Part shown: piece by piece, positions 8,268 through 37,602 of the stretch
How positions within the stretch are numbered: position 1 is the stretch's first letter
How the letters are laid out: each line of letters opens with the position of its first letter
NCBI RefSeq assembly: GCF_017468685.1
Contig: NZ_JAFUHT010000004.1
Location: 1 to 43,557 of the forward strand
Direction of reading: 5' to 3'
DNA: 43,557 nt
Origin: Methanobrevibacter sp.
GTDB lineage: Archaea; Methanobacteriota; Methanobacteria; Methanobacteriales; Methanobacteriaceae
Translations under genes and position numbers: made by a program
The notes under the pieces: generated by a model
The model's input: the letters and a program-made list of their open reading frames with translations, nothing else
The model's database searches: none
Told to the model about the DNA's origin: nothing

Positions 8268-8570
8268 TTAACCCGATACCATCACCAGCTCACCAGTAGC
8301 GGGATCTTCATATACCTTTCCGACTTCACTGTATCCGCTGTCTTCAAGTCCACCAGCATCAGTGTAATTCTGCGTGAATGTATCAGCAGTTGAAACGTCC
8401 TGCGTTGACTGTGACTGTGTAATCATATCCGGATTAGCGGACAATGCCATAATTGCAAAAATCAAAAACCCCAAAGCCAAAACAAGCATTGCATCGGACA
8501 GGTTATTTAATCCACCCATAGGATCATCATCAACTGATTCAGAAATCCTTCTTCTTTTCCTAAGCATCAA
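8268..8570 (-). CDS. ExbD-like DUF2149-type membrane protein
   Basis: The protein has 100 residues: a basic start (LRKRRR), one membrane helix (about 27-45) and a polar outer tail. The segment NNLSDAMLVLALGFLIF places an Asp (Asp26) at the beginning of the helix, just as in ExbD/TolR/MotB (pattern DxMLVLL), where that Asp carries protons. This supports a proton-channel partner of the ExbB-like protein encoded one base upstream. The tail is much shorter than that of true ExbD and ends in a small beta-like segment (VGKVYEDPATGELVMVSG). I place it in DUF2149 by resemblance. What the motor energises in an archaeon is unknown. Confidence 0.7.
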   Translation of the reverse strand: MMLRKRRRISESVDDDPMGGLNNLSDAMLVLALGFLIFAIMALSANPDMITQSQSTQDVSTADTFTQNYTDAGGLEDSGYSEVGKVYEDPATGELVMVSG

Positions 8571-8571
8571 A

Positions 8572-9213
8572 TCACCATTTGTTCATTGTTTCAAGTTCCG
8601 CTTCAGCAACGGTTTCAACATCAATAAGTTCTGATTCGTACCATTGCTTTTTGTATTTTGATATTAAAAATGCAATAGCTCCCACGGTCAAACCTGTGAC
8701 AGTTGTGTCAAATGCAATTGTCAGAGATTGGGCAAGAGTTGCAATGTCTCCTGTTCCAAGCGCTGCTAGTCCGGGACCTAACGGTATTAAAGTACCTAAA
8801 AGTCCCAATATTGGTCCAACACGAACTAATATATCAGTTTTATTAGTTTTTTTGATTAATCTTGTCTCATGAGCAGAAATCAATTCACTGGCCAATGCTT
8901 TTCTTGCTTCCGGCCCTATATCATGATTGTCTGCAATTCTTGTCAAAATTTCCTTTTGATAATCAAACAAGTCACTTTTTGAAATTTCATCTTTCATTTG
9001 AGCCACATTGGCTGAAAATGAAACTCTCCTGACTAAATCCTCCAAATTTCTTGAACTAATGGCTTTTCTTGAAATAAACTCATTAATCAATCCTCCGAAT
9101 GCCAATATGACAATAACTATCGAGACTACCAGCAAAACAACAACCGGTGTTAAAAGACTTTCAGACAGGATATGAATCAATGAAGTTAATGTTTCAGTTC
9201 CCTGAATAATCAT
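8572..9213 (-). CDS. MotA/TolQ/ExbB-family proton channel protein
   Basis: The 213-residue protein has one N-terminal membrane helix (about 18-45), a cytoplasmic helical part, and two C-terminal helices. The first of these contains the family signature VGPILGLLGTLIPLGPGLAAL and the second TTVTGLTVGAIAFLISKYKK. In the family these helices form the pentameric stator through which protons flow around the ExbD dimer. The start codon directly abuts the upstream stop (TAAATG), and the ExbD-like gene begins one base after its end, so three genes form one operon. Archaea without outer membranes have no TonB system, so the output of this motor is an open question. Confidence 0.9.
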   Translation of the reverse strand: MIIQGTETLTSLIHILSESLLTPVVVLLVVSIVIVILAFGGLINEFISRKAISSRNLEDLVRRVSFSANVAQMKDEISKSDLFDYQKEILTRIADNHDIGPEARKALASELISAHETRLIKKTNKTDILVRVGPILGLLGTLIPLGPGLAALGTGDIATLAQSLTIAFDTTVTGLTVGAIAFLISKYKKQWYESELIDVETVAEAELETMNKW

Positions 9214-9849
9214 TTATTTCCCCCTTGTATCATTTATAAGCACACCTACAACTAAAACAACAATAACTCCTATTATAACATAAATTAACTGATAAGTTGG
9301 AGTTAATATTAAAAATGAACTAAACATTGTATAGTTAAGATTTAATGTAGAATTATATGTCAATGCAAAAAGAAAAATCAATATTGACTCTAAAGTCATG
9401 TACTCACCAATTAAAACTGGATACTTCCTTTTTGCATGATGCAATAATCTTGTAAGCTGAAAAACGACAAATAGAATAATAAAAAATAATAAAGAATATG
9501 AAAGGGAATTAAAAACATTAAGATTAGCCTGTGAGGACAATAATATAACTGAGATTATGAAAATAACTAAAATTGAATAATTTAAAACTTTAATATTATT
9601 GTTTTTAGTACAATACACCATCATAGCAAATGTCAAGATAGATATTATTAAAAATATGTACCCAAAATAGTCCAACAATTCTAAATTTATGTTATTTGAG
9701 GCATTTATTAAAATAAATGTTATAATGGTAAATATTGCTGAAATTGCAATTAATTTCAGATTATTAATTTTATTATTGCCAAAAAGCAATGCTATATTGG
9801 CAGCGAATAAAACCAACAATACTAATAGATATCCTCCCATTAAATCCAT
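9214..9849 (-). CDS. Multi-pass membrane protein of the ExbB/ExbD-like operon (DUF2162-like, tentative)
   Basis: The 211-residue protein consists almost entirely of six to seven hydrophobic helices with very short loops. One basic cytoplasmic stretch, TRLLHHAKRKYPVLIGEY, lies near the centre. No catalytic motif is seen. It is the first gene of the operon with the ExbB-like and ExbD-like genes and directly abuts the former. In methanogens a membrane protein often accompanies the MotA/ExbB-DUF2149 pair, and I tentatively equate this one with it (DUF2162). Function as a transport or force-receiving component is inference. Confidence 0.55.
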   Translation of the reverse strand: MDLMGGYLLVLLVLFAANIALLFGNNKINNLKLIAISAIFTIITFILINASNNINLELLDYFGYIFLIISILTFAMMVYCTKNNNIKVLNYSILVIFIISVILLSSQANLNVFNSLSYSLLFFIILFVVFQLTRLLHHAKRKYPVLIGEYMTLESILIFLFALTYNSTLNLNYTMFSSFLILTPTYQLIYVIIGVIVVLVVGVLINDTRGK

Positions 9850-10067
9850 TTTTTAACCTTTCATATATTCTTTATACAATTAAATATTAATCAACATGAA
9901 TATATAAACATATCGAAATGAATTATTAAAAAATAAATCAAACAAACGAAAATAGACAATTAAATAAAATAATGATTTAAAAACTGTTTTAGATTAATTA
10001 AGCAATAAATTTTGATAAAAATAGAAAATAAAATAAAATGAAAGTAATTAATAAAAGCCATTATAAA
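9850..10067. other. AT-rich spacer between the ABC/FmdE operon and the ExbB-like operon
   Basis: No gene is seen. On the minus strand it holds the end of the FmdE transcript (several short T-runs between 10020 and 10060) and presumably the promoter of the ExbB-like operon, with TATA-like elements such as TATATAAACATAT at 9900-9912. Confidence 0.4.
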
Positions 10068-10637
10068 TTACTCTTCAATTATCTCATAATATGACCCTTC
10101 AGCACAGGAGATGCAAACAGGTTTTCCACCAATGAGTTTATGCCTGCCATCAGATACCTTTTCACCACATACAGAACAGAATGTAGTAGTATAAGGTTTA
10201 CCAGGCATGTCTCCAGGACCCAATTCAATTTTAACCTTGTCAACCTTGAACAGTTCTTCAGGTGGAGTTCTTCTGAACCTTGCAATCATTTCCTCCTTGG
10301 TTTCCTCATCCTTGAACTTCTTATTGGCATCAGCATCAGTTATTCTGAGTGCCTCACCGGTTTCCTGGTTAAGAAATGTAGCAGCAAACTTGCCGTAATA
10401 CATTTGCTTTAATGATCTTTTACCCATAGAGCATCCTGTTACAGACTGTACTGCATCAGACATGCAGCGGTCAATTTCCAGAAATACAATGAGATTTTTA
10501 TTTCTCTGATTCAAAGGCATTTCAAGCAGTTCCATACCATACATTGCAAGTTTGGTTCCGATTGCAATTCCACCGCAGACGTGTCCGTGAAACTCTGCAG
10601 CCTTTGCCAATTGTTCATCATAATCTTTTTCATTCAT
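10068..10637 (-). CDS. FmdE-family protein with C-terminal zinc finger
   Basis: The 189-residue protein has the FmdE fold signature EFHGHVCGGIAIGTKLA (His17, His19, Cys21) at its start, and further Cys residues at 58 and 69. A treble-clef or zinc-ribbon end follows with Cys154/Cys157 and Cys175/Cys178 (CSVCG...CISC). FmdE was named as a subunit E of formylmethanofuran dehydrogenase (Mo/W), but many FmdE proteins occur outside that complex and next to metal transporters. Here it follows a FecBCD-type importer, with 9 bases between its start and the ATPase stop, so a role in handling the imported metal or metal chelate is likely. The exact metal is not readable. Confidence 0.85.
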   Translation of the reverse strand: MNEKDYDEQLAKAAEFHGHVCGGIAIGTKLAMYGMELLEMPLNQRNKNLIVFLEIDRCMSDAVQSVTGCSMGKRSLKQMYYGKFAATFLNQETGEALRITDADANKKFKDEETKEEMIARFRRTPPEELFKVDKVKIELGPGDMPGKPYTTTFCSVCGEKVSDGRHKLIGGKPVCISCAEGSYYEIIEE

Positions 10638-10646
10638 ACTATCACC

Positions 10647-11450
10647 TTATAATTCTAATTTTAAATTTGTTTTCATTGGTACACAAACTTTTCGCTTGCC
10701 ATCCAATTCTATAAGCTTTACATCTATTGAATATGCTTTTTTCAGGTTTTCTTCAGTCACCACATCATCTGGAGCTCCGAAATCAATGAATTTCTTGTTT
10801 TTCATGATAGCCACTTTTGTCGAACTTAAAAATGCATGGTCTGGAAAATGAGATGACATTATGATTGACAAACCTGTTTTTGCGAGATTGTCAATAATTT
10901 CCAGTAGTTTTATCTGATTTCCAAAGTCCAAGTGTGAAGTTGGCTCATCAAGAATCAGGATATCCGGTTTTTGACATAATACTCTTGCTAAAAATACAAG
11001 CTGGCGTTCTCCTCCACTTAAATTGGTATAATCCTTATCCTTCAGATATTCAATGTCTAATGTTTTCAGAGCTTCCAGTGCGATTTTTATGTCTTCATCT
11101 CTCGGAGAATCAGTCAGGTTAAGATAAGGAGACCTTCCCATCAGTACAACATCAAACACCTTAAATGGAAAAGAGGGCACATGTGATTGGGGAATATAAC
11201 CGATATGTTTTGATATTTCCTTAAATGATAACTTCTTAATGTTTTTGCCGTTGATTAGTATTTCACCAGAACTAATTTCATGAAATCCGTTGAGACATTT
11301 AATCAGAGTGGTTTTTCCAGTACCGTTTGGCCCCAGAATACATAAGACATCTCCTTTTCCAATTGAAAAACTGATATCTGAAAATATTTCCTCATCATCA
11401 TATGAAAATGAAATGTTTTTTGCTTCAAATAATTTTGAGTCTATGACCAT
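10647..11450 (-). CDS. ABC transporter ATPase, FecE/BtuD type
   Basis: The 267-residue protein has all ATPase motifs: Walker A GPNGTGKTT (residues 40-48), Q-loop IGYIPQ, signature LSGGERQ (144-150), Walker B ILILDEP (164-170) and the H-loop SSHFPDHA. The family drives uptake of iron chelates, haem, cobalamin or similar. The start overlaps the permease end by 10 bases, indicating coupled translation. Order binding protein-permease-ATPase-FmdE on one strand makes this a complete importer operon. The sequence does not define the substrate. Confidence 0.93.
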   Translation of the reverse strand: MVIDSKLFEAKNISFSYDDEEIFSDISFSIGKGDVLCILGPNGTGKTTLIKCLNGFHEISSGEILINGKNIKKLSFKEISKHIGYIPQSHVPSFPFKVFDVVLMGRSPYLNLTDSPRDEDIKIALEALKTLDIEYLKDKDYTNLSGGERQLVFLARVLCQKPDILILDEPTSHLDFGNQIKLLEIIDNLAKTGLSIIMSSHFPDHAFLSSTKVAIMKNKKFIDFGAPDDVVTEENLKKAYSIDVKLIELDGKRKVCVPMKTNLKLEL

Positions 11451-12454
11451 TCTGAATAACCCCTTTTAAGTAAGTATAAAAATATCGGAACACCAATAAT
11501 AGCTGTGAGGATACCGATTGGAATTTCAATTGCAATCACAGCACGTGATATATTGTCAATCAGCAATAGAAAACTTGCACCCAAGCTCAGTGAAGCCGGA
11601 AGCAACACCCTGTTGTCCGGTCCCACTATCATACGGGACATGTGAGGTATAATCAGTCCGACCCATCCGACAATACCGCTTATGGATACTGCAGCTGAAG
11701 TGAGTAATGTACAGCCTGCAATAATCAAAAGCCTTATTTTTGACGGATCCAAACCTAAAGACTGTGCCTCCTCATCACCCATTGCAAGCAGGTTCATTTG
11801 CCATCTCAAAATCAATAATATTGCAAGTCCTATGATGACAGGTATTGCAATCATAAAGAGTTTATCCGCATTGATTGATGCCAAGCTACCCATCAGCCAG
11901 TATACGATTTCAGGCAGTTTATCGTCGGGATCTGCAATAAACTTAATTGCTGAAATCAGTGAATTGAAGAATGCTGAAATTGCAACTCCTGAAAGTACCA
12001 GTACAAGTATTCCACCAGCCTTATATGATTTTGATATCAGATAAGTTGTTGCAACTGATATCAAACCGAATACAAATGCAAAAATCTGTGTTATAATATT
12101 GGCTCCGCTTAAAAGGATTCCAAGTGCCGCTCCAAAGCCCGCACCATTTGAAACACCCAAAAGGTCAGATGATACCAATGGGTTTTTGAATATTGATTGG
12201 AATGCCGCACCAGAGATTGCAAGTGATGCACCGACAACTATTGCTCCGATTATTCTTGGAAGCCTTATTTCAAAGACTATTGTTGTTATTGTTGAGTTGA
12301 CCTCCAGTTGCGGAAATATTGGAGATAAAATCGTATTTATCACATCAACAGGACTGATTGGATATCTGCCTATCAGAAATGAAGCGAAGAATAAAAATAT
12401 TGGAAAAAAGATTAAAAGCACAATACTTATAATCTCTTTTGATTCCTTATCCAT
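11441..12454 (-). CDS. ABC transporter permease, FecCD/BtuC type
   Basis: The 337-residue membrane protein has about ten helices. Typical FecCD segments are LPRIIGAIVVGASLAISGAAFQ, which is near the family's first conserved block, then NPLVSSDLLGVSNGAGFGAA and GWVGLIIPHMSRMIVGPDNR, the cytoplasmic coupling region that contacts the ATPase. It presumably works as a homodimer, as no second permease gene is present. It begins one base after the binding-protein stop and overlaps the ATPase gene. Confidence 0.93.
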   Translation of the reverse strand: MDKESKEIISIVLLIFFPIFLFFASFLIGRYPISPVDVINTILSPIFPQLEVNSTITTIVFEIRLPRIIGAIVVGASLAISGAAFQSIFKNPLVSSDLLGVSNGAGFGAALGILLSGANIITQIFAFVFGLISVATTYLISKSYKAGGILVLVLSGVAISAFFNSLISAIKFIADPDDKLPEIVYWLMGSLASINADKLFMIAIPVIIGLAILLILRWQMNLLAMGDEEAQSLGLDPSKIRLLIIAGCTLLTSAAVSISGIVGWVGLIIPHMSRMIVGPDNRVLLPASLSLGASFLLLIDNISRAVIAIEIPIGILTAIIGVPIFLYLLKRGYSEWS

Positions 12455-12455
12455 T

Positions 12456-13562
12456 TTATAAATTCTCCTCTTTAAGTCCAGAGCCTAATAGAATATCCTT
12501 TGCCTGGTCGTCACTTAAATCAAAGTGGTAGAAATTACTGTAGAATTCCTTGGTTGCGCCAACCATGTCAATGTCCTTATAGTCATTAGGATAGATTACC
12601 TTTGCAGTCCATGGAACACCAATAATCATGTTTGCCCCTACAGGCCTGTCAAACCATTTGAATGGAGATTGCGGTGAGAGATATACTTCATGGTTTTTAA
12701 CTGCATCAAGTTTGCCCCAGTTTGAATCTGAATAAACGCTTGCATAGAATTCCGGATCTCCAGTGATAATTATATCTGGATTCCAGCTGATTACCTGTTC
12801 CATTGACACTTGAACTCCACTGGTAGTGTTTCCCTGAGCAACTGAATCAGCCACATTTACACCACCAACCAAATCAATCAGCTGACCGTGTGTTGAGTGT
12901 GAAGGGTTTGTCTGAAGTCCGTCATCACCCTGAGCATAATAGACTGTCTTTTTGTCACTGTCGGATAATTTGGATGATTTTTCATGTACAATGTCCAAGT
13001 ATTTGTCGTTGAAGTCATTGAGTTCCTGTGCCTTGTCTTCGGCTCCGACAACCTCACCCATGAATGTTATTGACTCGCCAATCTTTTCCACATTGGTGGT
13101 ATCCTTAACAGCAACGACAGGTATTGTACCGAACTTTTCCTGGCGTTCCTGAACGGTTGATGTATCACCGTCGCCGCCTTCATCAATGGATTCAATTACA
13201 ATGTCCGGTTCTGAAGCGATGAATTCCTCATAGCTTCCGTCCTGTGTACCGTACCATCCGCCGACTACTGGAAGGTTCTGGTATTGTCCTGGAACGTATT
13301 CCATCTCATCATCTGTCCATTGGAAGTTGACAGCCTTTAGTTTGTCCGGTGCAATCATGTACAATACTGTTGTCATTGGAGGACTTGTAGCAACGACATT
13401 GCTTACTGATGCAGGTATTTCCACTTGCCTGTCAATCATATCAGTAATGTTTTTGGATCCAACAGTTTCTACAGTTGAAGGTGTTAAAAACAAGTGTGTA
13501 GCCAGTCCCGCTACGACTAAAACAACTAACAATAAGATTATTACTTTGATTTTCTTTTCCAT
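12456..13562 (-). CDS. Substrate-binding protein of the FecB/BtuF type, membrane-anchored
   Basis: The 368-residue protein starts with a hydrophobic helix (about residues 6-27). It lacks a lipobox Cys, so it is probably tethered by that helix, as is common in methanogens. The core is a class III binding protein: ITDMIDRQVEIPASVSNVVA, then EEFIASEPDIVIESI, and SWNPDIIITGDPEFYAS in the second lobe. These occur in carriers of iron-siderophores, haem, cobalamin and related chelates. It is the first gene of the operon, with a strong purine-rich site (AGGGG) before the ATG. A TATA-like element and a palindrome lie just upstream. Confidence 0.9.
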   Translation of the reverse strand: MEKKIKVIILLLVVLVVAGLATHLFLTPSTVETVGSKNITDMIDRQVEIPASVSNVVATSPPMTTVLYMIAPDKLKAVNFQWTDDEMEYVPGQYQNLPVVGGWYGTQDGSYEEFIASEPDIVIESIDEGGDGDTSTVQERQEKFGTIPVVAVKDTTNVEKIGESITFMGEVVGAEDKAQELNDFNDKYLDIVHEKSSKLSDSDKKTVYYAQGDDGLQTNPSHSTHGQLIDLVGGVNVADSVAQGNTTSGVQVSMEQVISWNPDIIITGDPEFYASVYSDSNWGKLDAVKNHEVYLSPQSPFKWFDRPVGANMIIGVPWTAKVIYPNDYKDIDMVGATKEFYSNFYHFDLSDDQAKDILLGSGLKEENL

Positions 13563-16720: not shown

Positions 16721-18055
16721 TTATTTTTTAACAATAATTTTGCCAGTTTTGCTTGCACTATTATATACATTATCACCAGCAAATTTAACAGTGTATTTGA
16801 AGGTTCCTTTTTTAGTGACTTTAACTTTTATGGAAGCTACACCTTTTGAATTTGTTTTAGCAGAAAATGTTTTACCATTAACTTTAAGAGAAACTTTTTT
16901 ACCTGAAATAACCTTATTTCCAGATTTTAATGTGATTTTAACAGTTTTTGCTTTTTTCACTTTTAAAGTGGCTTTTGGAGCTTTTAGAGAAGATGATTTC
17001 TTACTGACAGCGATTTGAACACTGCTGAAAGTGGATTTATAATCATCATCACCTGCAAATACCAGTGTAGCATAATGAGTTCCTGAAGTTGAATATTTTA
17101 CCGGCAAATTTATAATTCCCACATTATCAGTTGTTAGGCTTCTGGATTGTCCATCAAGAATGATAACAACATTTTTATTTGGAATAGGTTTATTATTAGT
17201 ATCTTTTAGTGTGAACTGCAGATTTCCATTGTCTGAAGCTTTAATATTCAGACTGGAAGAGACTATAGTTGTGGAAACTAATTCTTTCACTTTATTTTCA
17301 ACCATTTCAACACTATTAGCGTTTATGTTTGTTGCATTGATTGACTTTATGAAACTATTAACGTTTCCAATGACGATATTTTTTATTGTAGTATTTTGAG
17401 TATTGTTTAGAACTATTGCATTGAACAGGAAATCATTCGGGTCATATTTGGAGGTTTCTTGGTTAACTCCAACCCAGTTGAATGTCAGGTTTTCAAGCAA
17501 TACGTCATCGGCATCTACATAGACTCCGAATGGATTGTAGACATTATTTGCAATATAGTAATAGTCATTTGTAAATGAAAAACCGCTTAGGACAGTTCCA
17601 TTGGCTTTTGGGGAAATATAGAATATTCCATTATCGGCAGGACCTTCACCATACTTCATCATATGAGTGTGGTGAGGACATACTCCAACACTGGTGCCGG
17701 GAGTTGCAATTATTGTTAAAGTCTTATTGATCATAAAATGACAGTGAACAAATGTTCCATTTAATACTATGGTATCTCCAGGGTTTGCTTTATCAATAAT
17801 CGGTTGCACTGTAGGTTTTTGGACCTGATTCGGATTATCAGGATCAGGAGCAACATAATATGTTTGAGGTCCGGTTTCTTCATCACAGCAATCTGATTCG
17901 TCAGTAGTTAATTTACTATCATCATTAATTTCAATAATATCCTCATTTTCATCAGTCAAATTTAAATCATTACTGTCCTGAGCAGAAATGGATGAAATAA
18001 ATGTTAAACCAATGATTAAAATTAAGGATATGATTATTATTTTATTTATTTTCAT
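16721..18055 (-). CDS. Adhesin-like protein: short beta-helix plus two Ig-like domains, HCHF/CPHHTH motif
   Basis: The 444-residue protein has a signal peptide (IIIISLILIIGLTFISSISA) and an acidic spacer with a Cys-Cys pair (56-57). A NosD-like right-handed beta-helix spans about 75-255. Two Ig-like domains follow, ending in the Lys-rich TKKGTFKYTVKFAGDNVYN...KIIVKK. The beta-helix contains HCHF (104-107) and CPHHTH (126-131), shared with the adhesin starting at 28054. No membrane helix is found at the end, so attachment is probably by the basic Ig-like domain to the wall. AGGTGA lies before the ATG. A ligand cannot be predicted. Confidence 0.85.
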   Translation of the reverse strand: MKINKIIIISLILIIGLTFISSISAQDSNDLNLTDENEDIIEINDDSKLTTDESDCCDEETGPQTYYVAPDPDNPNQVQKPTVQPIIDKANPGDTIVLNGTFVHCHFMINKTLTIIATPGTSVGVCPHHTHMMKYGEGPADNGIFYISPKANGTVLSGFSFTNDYYYIANNVYNPFGVYVDADDVLLENLTFNWVGVNQETSKYDPNDFLFNAIVLNNTQNTTIKNIVIGNVNSFIKSINATNINANSVEMVENKVKELVSTTIVSSSLNIKASDNGNLQFTLKDTNNKPIPNKNVVIILDGQSRSLTTDNVGIINLPVKYSTSGTHYATLVFAGDDDYKSTFSSVQIAVSKKSSSLKAPKATLKVKKAKTVKITLKSGNKVISGKKVSLKVNGKTFSAKTNSKGVASIKVKVTKKGTFKYTVKFAGDNVYNSASKTGKIIVKK

Positions 18056-18157: not shown

Positions 18158-21100
18158 TTATATTGGAATTTCACTTTCCGGAACTTCATACAAGTAAGTA
18201 ACTTTAAATACCCTTGATGTGGAATTGATTAAAGACCCAATGGAAATTTCAATTTTATTGTTTGAAGCATTGAAGTTATTAGAATCGAAATTAAATGTTC
18301 CAATACCGTCCACTACATCAAAAACAACTTCTACTTGTTTATCAGTTCCACGATTTAATGTTGCATACATGTCAAACACTGGAAGATTTGAAGCCAACAA
18401 TCCATTTTTATAGAATTTAATGCTATAATTTCCAAAGGAATTATAAGTCATATTAAATTCGATGTTTGTAGTATTTATTCTTGGACACATTGTTCCATAA
18501 CCTACAACACCTGTGTCATTATCCCAAGTAACAAGATTGTTAGTACCATACCAATTTGGTTCCAATTGTAATTTTTCATTTGGATTTAAAAGTCCACCAC
18601 CATATATTCCCTCAGGATTTGCACTTAACTCACCAAGAATCATCATACTTGGACCTCTGGCATTTCTATAAATTGCATTATCAGTCACATGAGGTTCAAC
18701 AGCATTTTCGCAAAGATCATAACCTGCATTGAATCTCATTCCTTCAAGAACATTATCTGTAATAGTGTTTTGAGTAATTACAATTCCAGTGGAATAATTT
18801 GCATCAAGAGAAATACCCAAATGGTTTGAAAATATATGGTTTTATTGATTGTAACATTTACAGCAGAGTTATTCAGGAATATTCCATAACCAGATGGTCC
18901 TTCAGGAACAGTCATAATATACAATCCGATGTTTTCTGTTATTTCATTATTTAAAATTTGAGTGTTTGAAACGCCAAATCCATATTTTATACCATAATTG
19001 TTTTCTCTTAAAGTATTATCATCTATTAATAACTTTGAGGAATCCTGGGCAAATACTCCACTTTCAAATAATTTAATCATGTTTTTATTTAATTTTACAT
19101 TTGATGAATTAATAATGCTTACACCATAACCTGGCAAATTAATGATTCCTTCATTATAGCTACTTAATATTGATTCATCCAAATTATTAGAAATTATATT
19201 ATCACTTATATTCACCCCATCAGCATTTTCCACAACAACTGCATTTCCGGAATTTCCGTTGATTGAAAATCCGTCAATAGCAACATTTTCAGCTGATATT
19301 GTAAAGACAGGATTATTAATTTTAGCGTTTAATGCTGTTTGACATTGAGATTGAATATTTAAGGATTTTTTAATTATTAAAGAAATATCAAAATATTGAT
19401 TGCCTAAAAACTCAACATTAACATTTTCACCAGCTTTATCCAAAATGCCTTGAATTTCACTATTTGACAAACCATTGTCAACAAATACCGTGTTAGTAAC
19501 ATCTTTAACAGTGATTTTATTTATTTTGGAAACTTCTTTGTACTTATCACTACCCACGTACTTAGTTTCAACATCATACACTCCAGGAGTGGTGAAATTT
19601 AAGTTTATGCTAGCAATACCATTGCTGTCAGTTGTTTTAGTTACACTGTGACCATTATAATTAAATATAATGTTGTGATTAGATAGTGCATTGCCTGATG
19701 CATCCTTGAGTGAAACTGAATAATCTTTAAGCAAATCTTTTGAATAAGTCTTATCAGTGCTAATTATGTCTGTTGCAATCTTATTAACATTTATTTTACC
19801 GGTTGCAGCAGAAGACTTATAAATTCCATTTCCATCATAGTTAACTTTAACAGAATAGGAGTTTTCATCGGCAAAATTAAGGTTGAGGCTGACCTGACCT
19901 TTAGAATTGGTTGTTTTAGCATATGTTTTACCGTTGACTTTAAGTGTTAATTTTTGTTTGGATAATGCATTATTGCCAGATTTTAAAGTTACTGTATAAG
20001 TGGTTGATTGTTTAGGAAGTGTTGAAACAGTGGGTGCTGTTATTTTTGTTGCTGCTTTAGCAACTTTAATTGATCCTTTTGAAGATGCTTTCTTATAGAT
20101 TTTACTTCCTTTATAGCTTGCACTTACTTTATATGTTTTGAATTTAGAAAATTTCACTTTAATTGTAATTAAACCCTTCTTGTTGGTTTTTTTCACATAT
20201 TTTTTATTAGCAATTTTTATTGTAACTTTTTGTTTGGCTATTCCTTTACCATTGCGATCCTTTAAACTGATAACATATTTTGTAGAGGTTTTAGGCTTAA
20301 TTGTTAGTTTTGGAGTTGTTAATTTAGCCTTTTTAGAGGAATATTTAACAACGATTTTATTAGTTTTTGAAACTGCTTTATATTGATTAACCCCGTTGTA
20401 AGTTATTTTAATTTTATAAGTTTTCTTATTTTTATTAAATTTAAGTTTTACTTTTGCAACACCATTACTATTGGTGGTTTTAGTGTAGGTTTTACCATTA
20501 ACTTTAAATGTTACTTTTTGATTAGCTAAGGCATTACCTGATTCATCTTTTAATGTTATTGAATAATATTCCGCCATTTTAGGAATCATATTAATATTTG
20601 AAGAGGTTATCTTAGTTAAGGATTTTTTAACAGTGACAGTTGATTGTGCTGAAGATCCGTAATAGTCAACATCTCCATCCCCAGCATATCTTACAGTTAG
20701 TGTATAGGTTCCTTCATTCGCTTCATTAATATTTAATTTAGCCTGACCTCCATTGGAAGTTATGACATTATAATTTTTTGAGTTGATTGTGAATGTCAAT
20801 GTTTCACCGACAATAGCTTTTCCATTCATATCAGTTAATGTGGCAACAATTTCCTGATTGGAATTAGGATAAGTATTTATGGAATTTACAGACACTTTTG
20901 TTTCAATAGGAATGCCTGGAATATATGCATCATCTACAGCAAATGTTTTGGATACTTTATTATCAAAATTTGTTCCAGGTGTTGGCAGAACTGCAGTTAT
21001 GACATTTCCGGTTTCATTAAACTCCTCCATATAAAATCTAACTGTAGCAGTTCCATCTTTCATCATTACAGTTTTATAGACATCCCCTTCTTGAGGAGCA

Positions 21101-22575
21101 GCTGTTTTTCCAATTTTATTAAGATAGAATGTTACAGGAACTGAACTTATGTCTGTTGCAATATTTCCATTTGCATCAACAATTGAAATAGAATAAATTC
21201 CTTTTTTTACTTGTGTAATCTCACTTAACTGAAGTTCATAGTTACCTGTTTTCGCCCAAACCATTCTAGGTGCATAATAAGTATTCGGACAACTTACAAA
21301 TTCATTAATTTCAAAAACATAACCTAAAAACATTATTCCCTGATGACCATAATAATCTCCATTTCCCTGTCCCACATAAGTATAGATATCTTTTGAGGAA
21401 TCATAAACATAATCCCCAACTACTGTATTATATTCATATACCTGTGTCCAAACAGGTCTGTCGATGTCTGCGCTTCCAAAACCTCCATAATTAATCATAT
21501 AGTTATTGTTAATTACTTCTAAGCTATTTCCTTTTTGAGCTAAATTTGTGACATGAAAATCATTGAAAACTTCCCATTTATAATTTTGATTAAAGAAATT
21601 TCCTTTGATTTCGATTTTAACTATATCATTATCGACATACACTCCATTATTCTTATTGAAAGCAATGTAATTACTTAATATATAAATATTATCTGAGGAA
21701 GTTAAGCTAATACCATTTCCATTATCTGAAATGTTATTGCTGTTAACAGTCAAATAACTTCCTTTTCCGGAAAATGAGACTCCTGCGTTATTATTATTAA
21801 TTATAATATTAGATGAAATAACTGTTCTTGTTGAATCAATGATATTTATCCCATTTTTTGAATTTTCTATGATTGAATTTTTAACGGAGACATCCTGTGA
21901 GTTCTTAATGTTTAATGCATTTGCACAATTAGATAATTCAACATTTTCAACAATTGTGTTTTTTGAATTTTCAACTCGTATTGCATCCGAATAGCCATTA
22001 TTTGTAATTTTACAGTTATTAATAGTAACGTCAGAAGCCCCACTAACCAATATTCCATAATCCTCATCATTATAAACATTGTTTTTTATGGTAAATCCTT
22101 GAATGACTGTTCCACTGGCACTTGGAGAAATGTAAAAAATTCCTTTATAACCAGAACCTAAAGTACTGCTTGGACATACCTCCATTGTAGTTCCAACATT
22201 ACTTATAATGGTTAATTTTTTATTTACAACAAAATGACAATGAACATAACTTTTTCCATTGATGATAATTGTATCTCCAGCTTTTGCATCATTTATTGCT
22301 TTTTGAATTGTTGATTGAGTCATTTCATTGTGATCCTCTTCAACTTCATCAACAATTATCGTATTAGCAGACAGCACATCATTATTGGTATTTTTAAGTG
22401 CATCTTCATCAATTGACTGCAATTTTGCATCATTTGATATTTCTAGATTATCCTCAAAAGAAGAATCTGTCAAGTTATTATCCTCATTATTTGCTGCGGC
22501 TAGTGAACCTAAACAAATGAATAATAGCAGCAATAAGGAAAAAATAATTACAAATTTATTATTAAATATTCTCAT
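18158..22575 (-). pseudogene. Large adhesin-like protein, two beta-helix regions and five Ig-like repeats, frameshifted near its 3' end
   Basis: The restored gene would encode about 1471 residues. It has a signal peptide (FSLLLLLFICLGSLAA), a first NosD-like beta-helix with VHCHF (111-115) and Cys134, and a middle domain shared with the adhesin starting at 28054. Five Ig-like repeats cover about 19500-20905 (each with a TYTKTTNSNGVAKVKL-like core). A second beta-helix (GLSNSEIQGILD onward) is followed by a beta-rich end. At 18832-18837 (ATATAT) an extra TA pair, relative to the expected frame, shifts translation out of NVTINKTI. The following frame resumes with HLGISLDANYSTG. The main frame 18778-22575 would thus give a truncated 1265-residue protein. 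A two-base indel in a short TA run may be phase variation, decay or sequence error. Confidence 0.8.
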
Positions 22576-30465: not shown

Positions 30466-30469
30466 GTGA
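30461..30469 (+). promoter_or_regulatory. Strong Shine-Dalgarno sequence with no ATG/GTG/TTG at proper distance
   Basis: AGGAGGTGA is a near-full match to the 16S rRNA 3' end. The only GTG in frame is inside this very element, so it cannot be used at normal spacing. In-frame codons at normal distance are ATA at 30472 and ATA at 30475. Start by AUA, or loss of an ancestral ATG by one base change, are the likely explanations. Confidence 0.6.
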
Positions 30470-32022
30470 AAATAATAAAATTCAATCAATTTGCATTATT
30501 ATGTCTCTTTATTATTATATTTTCACTAACGACAGTTCATGCATCCCAAGATAATTTAACATCAGAAAGTATGGAAATTGACGATACCCTTCAAAATCCA
30601 TCGTTCGATTTAGCCAGTGAGATTACCAATTCAAAAAATGGAGATGAAATCCTAATCCCTGAAGGCACATACACCATCAATAACTTAGAGATAACAAAAA
30701 ATCTTACCATTAAAGGGAATGGAGAGTCCAGAAATGTTATAATTGATGGTGAAAAAAAAGATAGTATTTTTCTTATAAGAAGTGATGCCATACATGTCAG
30801 TTTTAAAAACATTACATTCATCAATGCAAATACTGATGGCTTTGGTGGAGCAATCTCAATTGAAACAGGTCATGTTTATGTTGATAATTGTAATTTCATC
30901 AACAATAGTGCAGGAGTTAACGCTGGTGGAATTTCTAATTATGGAAACAGCGAACAGAAAGGGTATTTATTTGTGAATAATTCATTTTTCATGAATAATC
31001 ATGCGAACCATGATGGAGGTGCAATAACAACCTGTTATGCAAATTCAGACATTTATAATTGTGTATTCATAGATAATTTTGCACATCGTGACGGAGGTGC
31101 AATTAGAGTCAGTGTAGCAGGATATGGAAATGTTCAGGATTGTATTTTCATGTTTAACCATGCTGATGAATGGGGAGGAGCATATTACAGTTGGTCAGGT
31201 GAATCCAATATTGAACGATGCATATTTATGAACAATACTGCAGGAACCAATGGTGGAGCAGTAATGGTTTCAGGAAATTTGAATCTTGAAGATTCAATTA
31301 TCGTAAATAACAATGGTGGTGAAACTGGAGGATCATTTTACATCCAACAGCCAATGTATGATGCAAAAACAATAATTAATGTTCACAATAACATTATAAC
31401 AAATAATTCATCTCCATATGGTCAGGAAATATTTGTCAAATGGAAAGACATTAAAAATTTATATACAAAATTTGATGATAATGATTGGGGTGATGAAGAC
31501 CCGAATGATTCCTCTATAAATGATCCGAATAATGTTACTTCAAGAATCAAAGTATCTAGAACCATAAAATCAGATTTATTTAACAGGTTAAATGTTAATT
31601 TATTAGATAAATATAGAGATTTGCTTGGTAACTATTTTACAGATGAGTCATTTGACAATCTTAAAAATCAGTTTAATCATAATGCATCCAACAATGAAAG
31701 AACAAATAATAATCAGAATAGTAATGAAAATGTAAAAATCAAGAATACTTCTTCTACCAAAATAGCTATTAAAAATAATTCATCCCGTAATTTAGAGACA
31801 AAATCAAATGAAAATTCAAAAATAGTTAGTGATAATTACAATAATCTAATTATTGGAAATTCATCCTCCCATGGTGAAGATGAAAAGGCTTATGAATTAA
31901 ATGAGACTGGAGGCTCTGCAGTTAAACAAATTAATTCAGAGGAGAAATATTTTATTGTTGCAATAATCATTGCACTTATTCTATTAGTTATTGGTTATAA
32001 AAGAAACAAAAAAGAAGAGTAA
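30466..32022 (+). CDS. Adhesin-like beta-helix protein with C-terminal membrane anchor; start codon non-canonical
   Basis: About 515 residues. A signal peptide (FALLCLFIIIFSLTTVHA) is followed by a PMP-like right-handed beta-helix to about residue 330, with steps such as GGAISIE, GGAITTCY, GGAIRVS, GGAVMVS. An Asn/Ser-rich, low-complexity stalk follows (about 395-480). One C-terminal helix (YFIVAIIIALILLVIGYK) ends in the basic RNKKEE, anchoring it to the cytoplasmic membrane. No Ig-like domain is seen, unlike the minus-strand adhesins. The 30466 coordinate is a GTG within the ribosome site; true initiation is more likely at ATA 30472 or 30475. The next in-frame ATG would remove the signal peptide. 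A terminator shared with the DUF3021 gene follows. Confidence 0.82.
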   Translation: MKIIKFNQFALLCLFIIIFSLTTVHASQDNLTSESMEIDDTLQNPSFDLASEITNSKNGDEILIPEGTYTINNLEITKNLTIKGNGESRNVIIDGEKKDSIFLIRSDAIHVSFKNITFINANTDGFGGAISIETGHVYVDNCNFINNSAGVNAGGISNYGNSEQKGYLFVNNSFFMNNHANHDGGAITTCYANSDIYNCVFIDNFAHRDGGAIRVSVAGYGNVQDCIFMFNHADEWGGAYYSWSGESNIERCIFMNNTAGTNGGAVMVSGNLNLEDSIIVNNNGGETGGSFYIQQPMYDAKTIINVHNNIITNNSSPYGQEIFVKWKDIKNLYTKFDDNDWGDEDPNDSSINDPNNVTSRIKVSRTIKSDLFNRLNVNLLDKYRDLLGNYFTDESFDNLKNQFNHNASNNERTNNNQNSNENVKIKNTSSTKIAIKNNSSRNLETKSNENSKIVSDNYNNLIIGNSSSHGEDEKAYELNETGGSAVKQINSEEKYFIVAIIIALILLVIGYKRNKKEE

Positions 32023-35474: not shown

Positions 35475-35498
35475 AAAAAAAGAAAGATGATTATCTTT
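35475..35498 (-). terminator. Stem-loop plus seven Ts after the 703-residue adhesin gene
   Basis: AAAGAT (35483-35488) pairs with ATCTTT (35493-35498). Seven Ts follow on the minus strand (35481-35475). It overlaps the stop codon. Confidence 0.65.
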
Positions 35499-37602
35499 TT
35501 GAGTTCATTTCTTTTATATCTTCACGATAATAAAAACCTACTGTCAATATCATCAAAAGAATTATAAATGAAATTCCAGCAACTCTAAAGAATTCATCTT
35601 CATCAAGTAAAATTTGTTTTACAACTGATTGTGACTGAGAACCAAGATTACCTGCATCCCCAGTACTTGTTTCTGACGCACTAGCTTCAGATGATGTTGT
35701 CTGTGTTTCATAACTTTGTTCAACATCATTCACCTGATTGTTTGCACTGTTTGATGGATCAGCTCTTTGACTGTGAGTACTGTTTCCATTAGAACGACTG
35801 TCCTGTTTTGAAGCACCATTACCGTTATTTGCATCCCCATCAGTGCCATCTCCATCACCATTCCCATTTCCAGCACTGCCAATATCTTCATATAATTGAT
35901 AACTTGGAATTGAAGGATAATTATATGCAGGAGTTTGTCCATTAATCACTTTAGAATTGGTACGAGTATTTGAATCATAAGTGTTATCTCGTCTAGAACT
36001 ATCCACTGTTGCTTTAATAAGATCACCATCATTTGCATCAACAGTAAATGTGACTATGCCCCCACTAATTGTTAATGTGATACTTTGACCATTATTTGCC
36101 CTATATGATAAAGTCCTATCCGGAAGCAAACTAGCAATATTGCCATTAGAATCTAGAAAAGATGCTTGAAATTGATTTGAACTAATTTGTGTTACAACAA
36201 ATCGAATATTATTAGTTTTAATCTTAGGACAGATTAAACCAACATCACTGTACCAATTTTCACCTATTTCCAAACGTTGTCCGTTTTCATTGTAATATGT
36301 TTCTTTAGCTTCAACTTCACGATGACCGTTGCCTACAATGGCATTGTAACTTATTTCCTGGTTTTTTGGTTTAACGTATTCATCATTAAACTTAATACCT
36401 ACATAACCATTATTGGATATGACATTTGACTGAATAACATTATTTCCAATATTAGTTATTGAAATACCACTTCCCACATTATAGTCAATTGAATTACCCT
36501 TAATGTTAATATTATTGCCTGCTTTATAACTATAAATACCGTTTTCACCATTTTTTGAAACAGTATTCTTATTAATATAAACGTCTTGAGGCCCACTACC
36601 ATAATTCTTACCGTTCACAGTATTGGTAAGCTTAATTCCATTTTTAGCATTACTAGAAATGATATTATCATGAATATAAGTTTTTGAGGATTTCCCCAAT
36701 TCAATACCATCAGCCCCATTACTGTTAATCTTATTATTGAAAATGTATGTTGAAGTGACATCTCCAAGGACAATTCCTGATTTTGAATTTTTCAAAATAT
36801 TATTGTTTGAAATATTCAAATAAGTGGTTCCTGTTGCAACAATTCCATTACCTTTCCCAGTTATATCATTTTTAGTGATTGTTACATAATCTGCACTATT
36901 TATAACAATTCCATCACCTCCACTTTGAATATTGAATCCTTTTATAGTGGTTAATGATGCGGATTTGCCTTTGATAGTTATTACCTGACCCGAATTGGAT
37001 TTGAGTACAGTATTTACATTACTTTGAAGTTTTAAACATTTAGTAATAACAAGATTAATATTAGAATAGCTTGACCCTTTAAATAGAATTACATTATTGC
37101 TTTTTGCATTATCAATAATATTCTGTATTTGAGAATTGCTTAAACCGCTTTCAACTTCACGAGTATTATCCATAGTAATTCTTGTTGATAGACTGGATGA
37201 TTTATATTTAGAGTTTCCAGCGAATTTAGAAACAATATTATATGCACCATCATTTAATCTAATCTGAAGTGAAGCAATTCCAGCTGAATCAGTATTTTTA
37301 TTATAGTTAGCACCATTTACAGTGAAAGTCACTTTAGCATTTGCTATAGGATTGTTATTAACGTCAGCCAATTTTACTTTGAAATAATCCCCAATAACAT
37401 CAAATTCAGTTGTACTTTCCACATTAAAATGAGTGTCAACTGTTGAGGCTTCAAGAAACGATTCATTTGATATTGACTGAACTTCTTCAACTTCAGTCAT
37501 TTCGACAATTTCGGTTGTGTTATCAATATCTTGTGCTGAGGTAAAGTTTAGCGTTAAGAAAATTAATGCAATCAATACAATTATTAATACTTTTTTATTC
37601 AT
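35491..37602 (-). CDS. Adhesin-like protein: N-terminal Ig-like domain, beta-helix, low-complexity stalk and C-terminal membrane anchor
   Basis: The 703-residue protein has a signal peptide (LIIVLIALIFLTLNFTSA) and an Ig-like domain (about 65-145). The segment GLSNSQIQNIIDNAKSNNVI follows, then a NosD-like beta-helix to about 455 and a further beta domain. A Gly/Asn/Asp/Ser/Thr-rich stalk (about 575-665) leads to a membrane helix (FRVAGISFIILLMILTVGFY) with a basic tail. The Ig-GLSNS-helix order is the same as the second half of the large frameshifted adhesin (18158-22575), so modules have been exchanged or duplicated. It stands 98 bases downstream of nothing on its strand but the MFS region, with a strong purine-rich site before the ATG. 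Confidence 0.87.
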   Translation of the reverse strand: MNKKVLIIVLIALIFLTLNFTSAQDIDNTTEIVEMTEVEEVQSISNESFLEASTVDTHFNVESTTEFDVIGDYFKVKLADVNNNPIANAKVTFTVNGANYNKNTDSAGIASLQIRLNDGAYNIVSKFAGNSKYKSSSLSTRITMDNTREVESGLSNSQIQNIIDNAKSNNVILFKGSSYSNINLVITKCLKLQSNVNTVLKSNSGQVITIKGKSASLTTIKGFNIQSGGDGIVINSADYVTITKNDITGKGNGIVATGTTYLNISNNNILKNSKSGIVLGDVTSTYIFNNKINSNGADGIELGKSSKTYIHDNIISSNAKNGIKLTNTVNGKNYGSGPQDVYINKNTVSKNGENGIYSYKAGNNINIKGNSIDYNVGSGISITNIGNNVIQSNVISNNGYVGIKFNDEYVKPKNQEISYNAIVGNGHREVEAKETYYNENGQRLEIGENWYSDVGLICPKIKTNNIRFVVTQISSNQFQASFLDSNGNIASLLPDRTLSYRANNGQSITLTISGGIVTFTVDANDGDLIKATVDSSRRDNTYDSNTRTNSKVINGQTPAYNYPSIPSYQLYEDIGSAGNGNGDGDGTDGDANNGNGASKQDSRSNGNSTHSQRADPSNSANNQVNDVEQSYETQTTSSEASASETSTGDAGNLGSQSQSVVKQILLDEDEFFRVAGISFIILLMILTVGFYYREDIKEMNSKR

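Follow-up and report, generated by a model that had tools for sequence, protein, structure and literature searches.

The analysed window is a 43,557-nt stretch of a Methanobrevibacter sp. genome (contig NZ_JAFUHT010000004.1), in which three close-packed genes occupy 8268–9849 of the minus strand, matching the position where the first-pass annotation had placed an ExbB/ExbD-like proton motor. These are T (9214..9849, minus strand, 211 aa), a DUF2162-like multi-pass membrane protein in the position of HmuT, without the CPxC motif found in copies that stand beside CobN; E (8572..9213, minus strand, 213 aa), a MotA/TolQ/ExbB channel protein of the HmuU type; and V (8268..8567, minus strand, 99 aa counted from ATG), a DUF2149 protein of the HmuV type, ExbD-like, with one membrane helix and a conserved Asp. 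The trio is further referred to as TEV. T and E abut, and 4 nt lie between E and V. A TTG start would give V the coordinates 8268–8570 (100 aa), while the ATG one codon on, at 8567, fits the relatives better. The Pfam scores of E with MotA_ExbB (PF01618; 42.5 bits, cut-off 22.9) and of V with DUF2149 (PF09919; 39.9 bits, cut-off 27.1) are above the thresholds, and that of T with DUF2162 (PF09930), 19 bits, is under the cut-off of 34.4. NCBIfam provided nothing useful for the trio, sequence searches of PDB with P0001 and P0002 taken singly produced no match, and none of the PADLOC families, the Zorya (ZorAB) model included, matched the three proteins.

Upstream of the trio, on the same strand, lies a chelate importer formed by a FecB/BtuF-like substrate-binding protein (12456..13562; Pfam Peripla_BP_2, 80.5 bits), a FecCD permease (11441..12454; 295.7 bits) and an ABC ATPase (10647..11450; ABC_tran, 114.4 bits), followed by a protein with an FmdE domain and a C4 zinc finger (10068..10637; 104.4 and 39.3 bits), in which no signal peptide is seen. 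FmdE and T are separated by an AT-rich gap of 218 nt (9850..10067, minus strand), possibly holding the trio's own promoter; no terminator-like site was seen in this gap by a scan that does not cover archaeal promoters. The gap suggests that the trio may be transcribed apart from FecBCD–FmdE.

The description of E in the first-pass annotation as an ExbB-family protein with channel helices is borne out by Pfam and by structure prediction. The AlphaFold (AF2) model (pLDDT 88.9) has long helices as in ExbB, three of them membrane helices, as in the MotA/TolQ/ExbB fold; the top Foldseek matches are ExbB (E 3e-5), with TolQ, MotA and PomA lower down, and VIA-align comparison with E. coli ExbB yields Z 13.7. 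A profile of the E family reaches MotA in PDB at E 0.002, and both Thr motifs align with those of MotA. These motifs, GL[LM]GTL and AF[DN]TT, are kept in 72 out of 72 distinct ExbBs and correspond in the window protein to T141 and T171, which we take to be the conserved pore-helix threonines.

V starts with a basic stretch, continues with a single membrane helix that opens with NNLSDAML and a short outer part, and closes with a conserved end. The Asp near the helix start, as in ExbD/TolR, had been pointed out previously and is confirmed as residue 26 (25 when counted from ATG), being kept in all 162 distinct archaeal DUF2149 sequences collected and present in DUF2149 from Trichlorobacter as well. 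V has no match to Pfam ExbD/TolR (PF02472) at E ≤ 0.1, and the DUF2149 profile did not find ExbD in PDB. An hhalign comparison of DUF2149 and ExbD places the Asp residues in register in a weak match (prob 13%, E 0.002), and the comparison of profiles from a wider set is weaker still (prob 2.6%, E 0.018); a relationship between the two families is plausible. Taken with the predicted model, these data support the view of E as a channel protein of ExbB fold and of V as its small partner, bearing the Asp.

T is a divergent member of DUF2162, as the profile–profile comparison of 13 window-type T proteins with 11 CPxC-bearing DUF2162 proteins (ten archaeal and one from Trichlorobacter) has prob 97% and E 4.6e-11. 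The model of a T relative (L134) contains seven membrane-length helices. TonB and TolA are single-pass proteins, and the earlier suggestion that the third protein of the locus takes the place of TonB/TolA is not supported, given this model and the hhalign kinship of T with the multi-pass DUF2162 family of “predicted transporters”; any TonB-like part would more likely fall to the C-terminal helix of a surface protein. The DUF2162 model has no clear structural match (best Foldseek E 0.1; best VIA Z 11.3, to NorA), and no reading was taken from these scores, since they are uninformative for a helical membrane protein. Across the scanned loci, 126 T genes were counted; CPxC is found in 34 out of 34 with CobN alongside and in 9 out of 92 without it, and a metal site is a possible role for this motif.

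DUF2149 is present in 135 out of 151 genomes and 19 out of 20 genera of the phylum, and ExbB proteins related to that of the window (E ≤ 1e-30) likewise occur in 135 out of 151 genomes, so that the trio is no chance occurrence. TonB_C was found in none of the 151 genomes; of the 14 controls, those from E. coli, Caulobacter and Bacteroides were positive. The pairing of an ExbB-type protein with an Asp-bearing partner, proposed by the first-pass annotation, is supported, in a phylum where TonB was not found. In a Clostridia-like phylum, DUF2149 was detected at E 0.001 in 6 out of 392 genomes, with one match above the cut-off, from a probably mis-binned genome. L141 and L200 are DUF2149 loci from MAGs that carry the names Bacillales and Clostridia; at 64 and 60% identity to the query they look archaeal, and both contigs are probably mis-binned. 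ExbD relatives on plasmids are limited to two records. One window-type locus, L126, with a stop codon in ExbB, a short DUF2149 and broken neighbours, seems to be decaying.

The genome containing the window has three DUF2149 genes and four MotA_ExbB genes. The C20 copy (L011) is preceded by a CobN-like protein of 1711 aa that has a C-terminal membrane helix, and the C21 copy by a 528-aa surface protein with no Pfam match. On contig C6 of the same genome (L012:8839-11913), ExbB (100 bits) and ExbD (31.5 bits) form a pair of the classic type; an MreB-like gene (324 bits) is close by, separated from them by an RNase HII-like ORF, and this pair is a candidate wall-related motor of the pseudomurein cell.

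The gene neighborhood was surveyed in 80 named loci, reduced by script to 78 ExbB loci; by name, nearly all of the 80 belong to Methanobrevibacter, Methanosphaera, Methanoflexus or Methanobacteriaceae, the exceptions being two records that are probably mis-binned and one labelled “Euryarchaeota”. T, E and V stay together in nearly all loci. A membrane-anchored CobN-like protein (CobN-type being PF02514) is located immediately upstream of T in 32 out of 78 ExbB loci, and the partners seen otherwise are surface proteins that carry FmdE domains, beta-helices, or PKD and other repeats. In ten loci (L161, L164, L166, L167, L172, L175, L181, L184, L186, L195) E and V stand beside a surface protein and T is undetected. 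Anchored and exported FmdE-domain proteins occur near TEV at L180:4038-7037, L196:2808-5864 and L212:3165-5789, and differ from the window FmdE by their export.

For loci of the window type we considered a set of 61, comprising the window, 56 other genomes (best ExbB at least 57% identical to P0002) and the distant loci L129–L132. FmdE is immediately upstream of T in 32 of these, and in the remaining ones this position is mostly held by a surface protein, in many cases a beta-helix protein with a C-terminal helix. In six window-type loci an adhesin-like protein with no C-terminal helix is directly upstream of T, and in four of the six a helix-bearing protein is found one gene further out.

C-terminal membrane helices are indeed common near the module: with “surface-like” and “C-terminal helix” defined by hydropathy thresholds that we set, 54 out of 81 surface-like ORFs near ExbB have such a helix, compared to 11 out of 86 elsewhere in the same loci (here and below, enrichment and co-occurrence statistics are not corrected for phylogeny). 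Moreover, the tails of CobN, FmdE and PKD/beta-helix partners resemble each other and follow the pattern [SA]YE[VIL]–helix–GY, with E3, G37 and nearly Y38 common to 17 tails, which were picked by hand, include one CobN (C62) away from TEV and are not a random sample. A loose YE[ILV]-like pattern is found in only 22 out of 65 C-tailed neighbor proteins, and the window-type beta-helix tail is of another kind, DEExxRxAG–helix–YYRDD. Of the 135 genomes that have DUF2149, 110 contain strong matches to the tail profile (E ≤ 1e-6), compared to 1 out of 16 without it (counted by eye, Fisher test; several of the latter genomes are incomplete); the 25 DUF2149 genomes with no strong match come in many cases from one genus (g12). 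Of the three targets that had been offered for the motor (the pseudomurein wall, a large surface complex and the nearby chelate importer), the second has the best evidence, from both the neighbor surveys and the tails.

The likeliest client of the window copy, as we infer, is a beta-helix surface protein encoded at 35491..37602 (minus strand; Pfam Beta_helix/NosD), which has a signal peptide and, according to the tail survey, a C-terminal membrane tail. This tail is found in 60 out of 151 genomes, that is, in 52 out of 57 with the window-type ExbB and in 8 out of 94 others. In those close relatives that have both on one contig, the beta-helix gene is found on the same strand at a distance of approximately 17–48 kb upstream, and in more distant relatives a similarly tailed beta-helix protein is encoded directly upstream of T; in the window the distance to the trio is now 26 kb. 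Given the co-occurrence of the tail and the direct adjacency in distant relatives, the gene order of the window looks like an old beta-helix–T–E–V set invaded by adhesin-like genes and FecBCD–FmdE. Locus L119 has the order adhesin-like, tailed beta-helix, T, E, V, adhesin-like, into which the M. ruminantium M1 tags mru_0326, mru_0327, mru_0329 and mru_0331 would fit by our tentative assignment. According to PMC5816558, the adhesin-like mru_0326, mru_0327 and mru_0331 are upregulated in the presence of lauric acid (log2 5.04, 1.73 and 1.15, respectively), and mru_0329, a MotA/TolQ/ExbB protein, is upregulated alongside (1.56 log2).

TEV can be described as a widespread TonB-free module tied to anchored surface proteins, with energy coupling as its putative function. 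Our leading interpretation, to which we give a chance slightly short of even, is that DUF2162, ExbB and DUF2149 form an energy-coupling module acting on tail-anchored surface proteins. Observed in its favor are the family assignments, the ExbB fold of the predicted model, the conservation of the Asp and of the Thr residues, the gene linkage, the similar tails and the absence of TonB. In the only membrane of the cell, the cytoplasmic one, an ion-driven motor of the ExbBD/TolQR/MotAB kind would be formed by ExbB, probably as a pentamer, and by DUF2149, probably in two copies, with the Asp placed in the DUF2149 membrane helix. Protons or sodium ions would pass through the ExbB–DUF2149 assembly via this Asp, and the resulting force and movement would reach either DUF2162 or, by way of its membrane helix, the surface protein. 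The presumed load, in place of TonB or an outer-membrane receptor, would be DUF2162 along with a large surface protein anchored by a helix at its C-terminus. For the majority of relatives this surface protein would be the CobN-like exported (de)chelatase, and the ion flow could substitute for the AAA+ ATPase of class I chelatases; alternatively, it may drive hand-over of a metal or tetrapyrrole through the Cys-bearing DUF2162. With CobN partners the motor could thereby power the extracellular handling of metals or tetrapyrroles. For the window copy, whose DUF2162 has no CPxC, the likeliest load would be the beta-helix protein, and in this lineage the module also travels with the FecBCD importer. 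Counting against this interpretation are the weak profile match of DUF2149 to ExbD, the loose tail pattern found in 22 out of 65 C-tailed neighbors only, the differing tail of the window-type beta-helix proteins, the six loci with a helix-less adhesin-like protein next to T, the 25 DUF2149 genomes with no strong tail match, the tailed CobN away from TEV (C62) and the 26 kb between the trio and its presumed client.

Motors of the ExbB/ExbD type are understood as energy sources for the outer membrane, for flagella or for defence. The nearly universal presence of TEV in TonB-free methanogens and its ties to exported chelatases and anchored surface proteins point to a different job for such a motor. 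TEV shares with ExbB–ExbD–TonB and TolQ–TolR–TolA the ExbB/TolQ fold, the Thr motifs and a one-helix Asp-bearing partner, but it has no TonB, the partner is DUF2149 rather than PF02472, and the third protein is multi-pass. The channel fold of E and the profile match to MotA are reminiscent of the MotAB/PomAB stators and ZorAB, whereas the trio has no PADLOC match and no peptidoglycan-binding partner is seen. As for class I chelatases (CobNST, BchHDI), many TEV relatives have a CobN-type partner (PF02514), which differs from the chelatase subunits by its signal-like start and C-terminal membrane helix.

The closest known system is encoded by the hmuYRSTUV heme operon of Bacteroidota, in which, as described in PMC10434189, HmuU is a MotA/TolQ/ExbB protein and HmuV a DUF2149 protein, standing behind the CobN-type de-chelatase HmuS. 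TEV looks like an archaeal counterpart of HmuT–HmuU–HmuV: the family names of U and V agree, as does the upstream position of CobN in relatives of the window set, in contrast to the lack of TonB in the archaeal phylum and to the window copy, which has a divergent T and no adjacent CobN. A CobN-type HmuS beside T–U–V is thus absent at the window copy and present at the C20 copy. The correspondence between DUF2162 and HmuT is drawn from gene position and the DUF2162 of Trichlorobacter. On the Trichlorobacter lovleyi plasmid NC_010815.1 the gene order is TBDR–DUF2162–ExbB–DUF2149–CobN–ExbB–ExbD–TonB–TBDR, and no AAA+ partner is annotated in this stretch. As this run contains a separate ExbB–ExbD–TonB set, TEV is not simply a TonB energiser, and a DUF2149 set serving only in that capacity seems unlikely on such genomic evidence.

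In published models HmuU and HmuV are assigned to powering the TonB receptor (PMC10100974; PMC12583661, EMBO J 2025), with HmuT left open in the latter, and in 2026 HmuTUV was put forward as a heme transporter of the inner membrane (PMC13227078). The gene sets of archaea and Trichlorobacter favor a role of the inner-membrane-transporter type, and the choice between these two assignments bears on gut heme biology. The function of archaeal CobN homologues, called unclear in the same EMBO J text (PMC12583661), gains in TEV a partner to test. The pairing of DUF2149 with an ExbB-type protein is already in print, a methanogen DUF2149 being mentioned as “linked to biopolymer transport protein TolQ” in PMC9425974. 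In the portions of the literature on CobN, ExbB, DUF2149 and DUF2162 in methanogens and archaea that were searched, we found no paper that ties the TEV module to tailed surface proteins or that draws the resulting reading of HmuTUV.

A broader form of the energy-coupling reading, possible but clearly more speculative, is that TEV would be a general ion-driven surface engine of single-membrane archaea. It would dock on a short C-terminal tail ([SA]YE[VIL]–helix–GY or a variant) grafted onto unrelated outer domains, such as CobN chelatases, FmdE, beta-helices and PKD repeats, and ion flow within the membrane would drive chemistry or movement on its outer side; in bacteria, HmuTUV would accordingly energise HmuS, or the hand-over from HmuS to HmuT, and not the TonB receptor. 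A point against energy coupling in general is that the CobN-type partner need not be energised: as reported in PMC12583661, recombinant HmuS converts heme to PPIX, and B. theta membranes require NADH, but no ATP, to de-chelate heme, which speaks against outside energy being strictly needed for this step.

The strongest competitor, in our view rather unlikely, is a transporter of the HmuTUV type, in which the load would be DUF2162 itself, acting as a permease for a metal ion or a tetrapyrrole and driven by ExbB–DUF2149, and the surface protein would only supply the substrate. The association of CPxC with CobN (34/34), the linkage of T, E and V in nearly all loci and the heme movement across the inner membrane proposed in PMC13227078 agree with it; the ten loci with E, V and a surface protein but undetected T, the lack of CPxC in the window T and the DUF2162 model with no clear fold match do not.

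That the window trio serves the neighboring FecBCD–FmdE chelate importer seems improbable. The association itself is repeated, as suggested by FecB or FecBCD adjoining the trio in differing orders in L127, L129 and L132, and FmdE directly precedes T in 32 out of 61 loci. Yet approximately half of these loci have no FecBCD adjoining the trio; the link proposed by the first-pass annotation stands for one subclade and as a lineage-specific feature. The importer genes do lie near the trio in the window, and the 218 nt between FmdE and T, which make a common operon at best putative, speak against this reading. FecBCD is, moreover, an ATP-driven ABC importer and needs no proton motor.

It is hardly probable that the tail is an ordinary membrane anchor and that TEV stands beside surface genes by chance synteny. 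The window is indeed crowded with surface-protein genes at 16721–37602, tails occur away from TEV too (C62), and M. ruminantium was described earlier as having 14 adhesin-like proteins that end in a membrane domain (PMC2812497), but such a reading is opposed by the C-terminal helix enrichment (54/81 vs. 11/86), by the several unrelated outer domains found with TEV (CobN, FmdE, beta-helix, PKD) and by the CobN–TEV set on the Trichlorobacter plasmid.

Several additional features have been observed in the same genome. On contig C62 (L253:7420-12267) a second exported CobN-like protein carries an AYEL–helix–GY tail with no TEV alongside. In the window, a 518-aa surface protein encoded on the plus strand at 30466–32022 ends with AYEL...helix...GYKRNKKEE, a tail like those of TEV-linked proteins, and two overlapping ORFs of 1265 and 220 aa at 18158–22575 look like one frameshifted adhesin-like gene. 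Finally, positions 51–1650 contain an Rfam match to a group II intron, and the adjoining 504-aa ORF looks like its reverse transcriptase.
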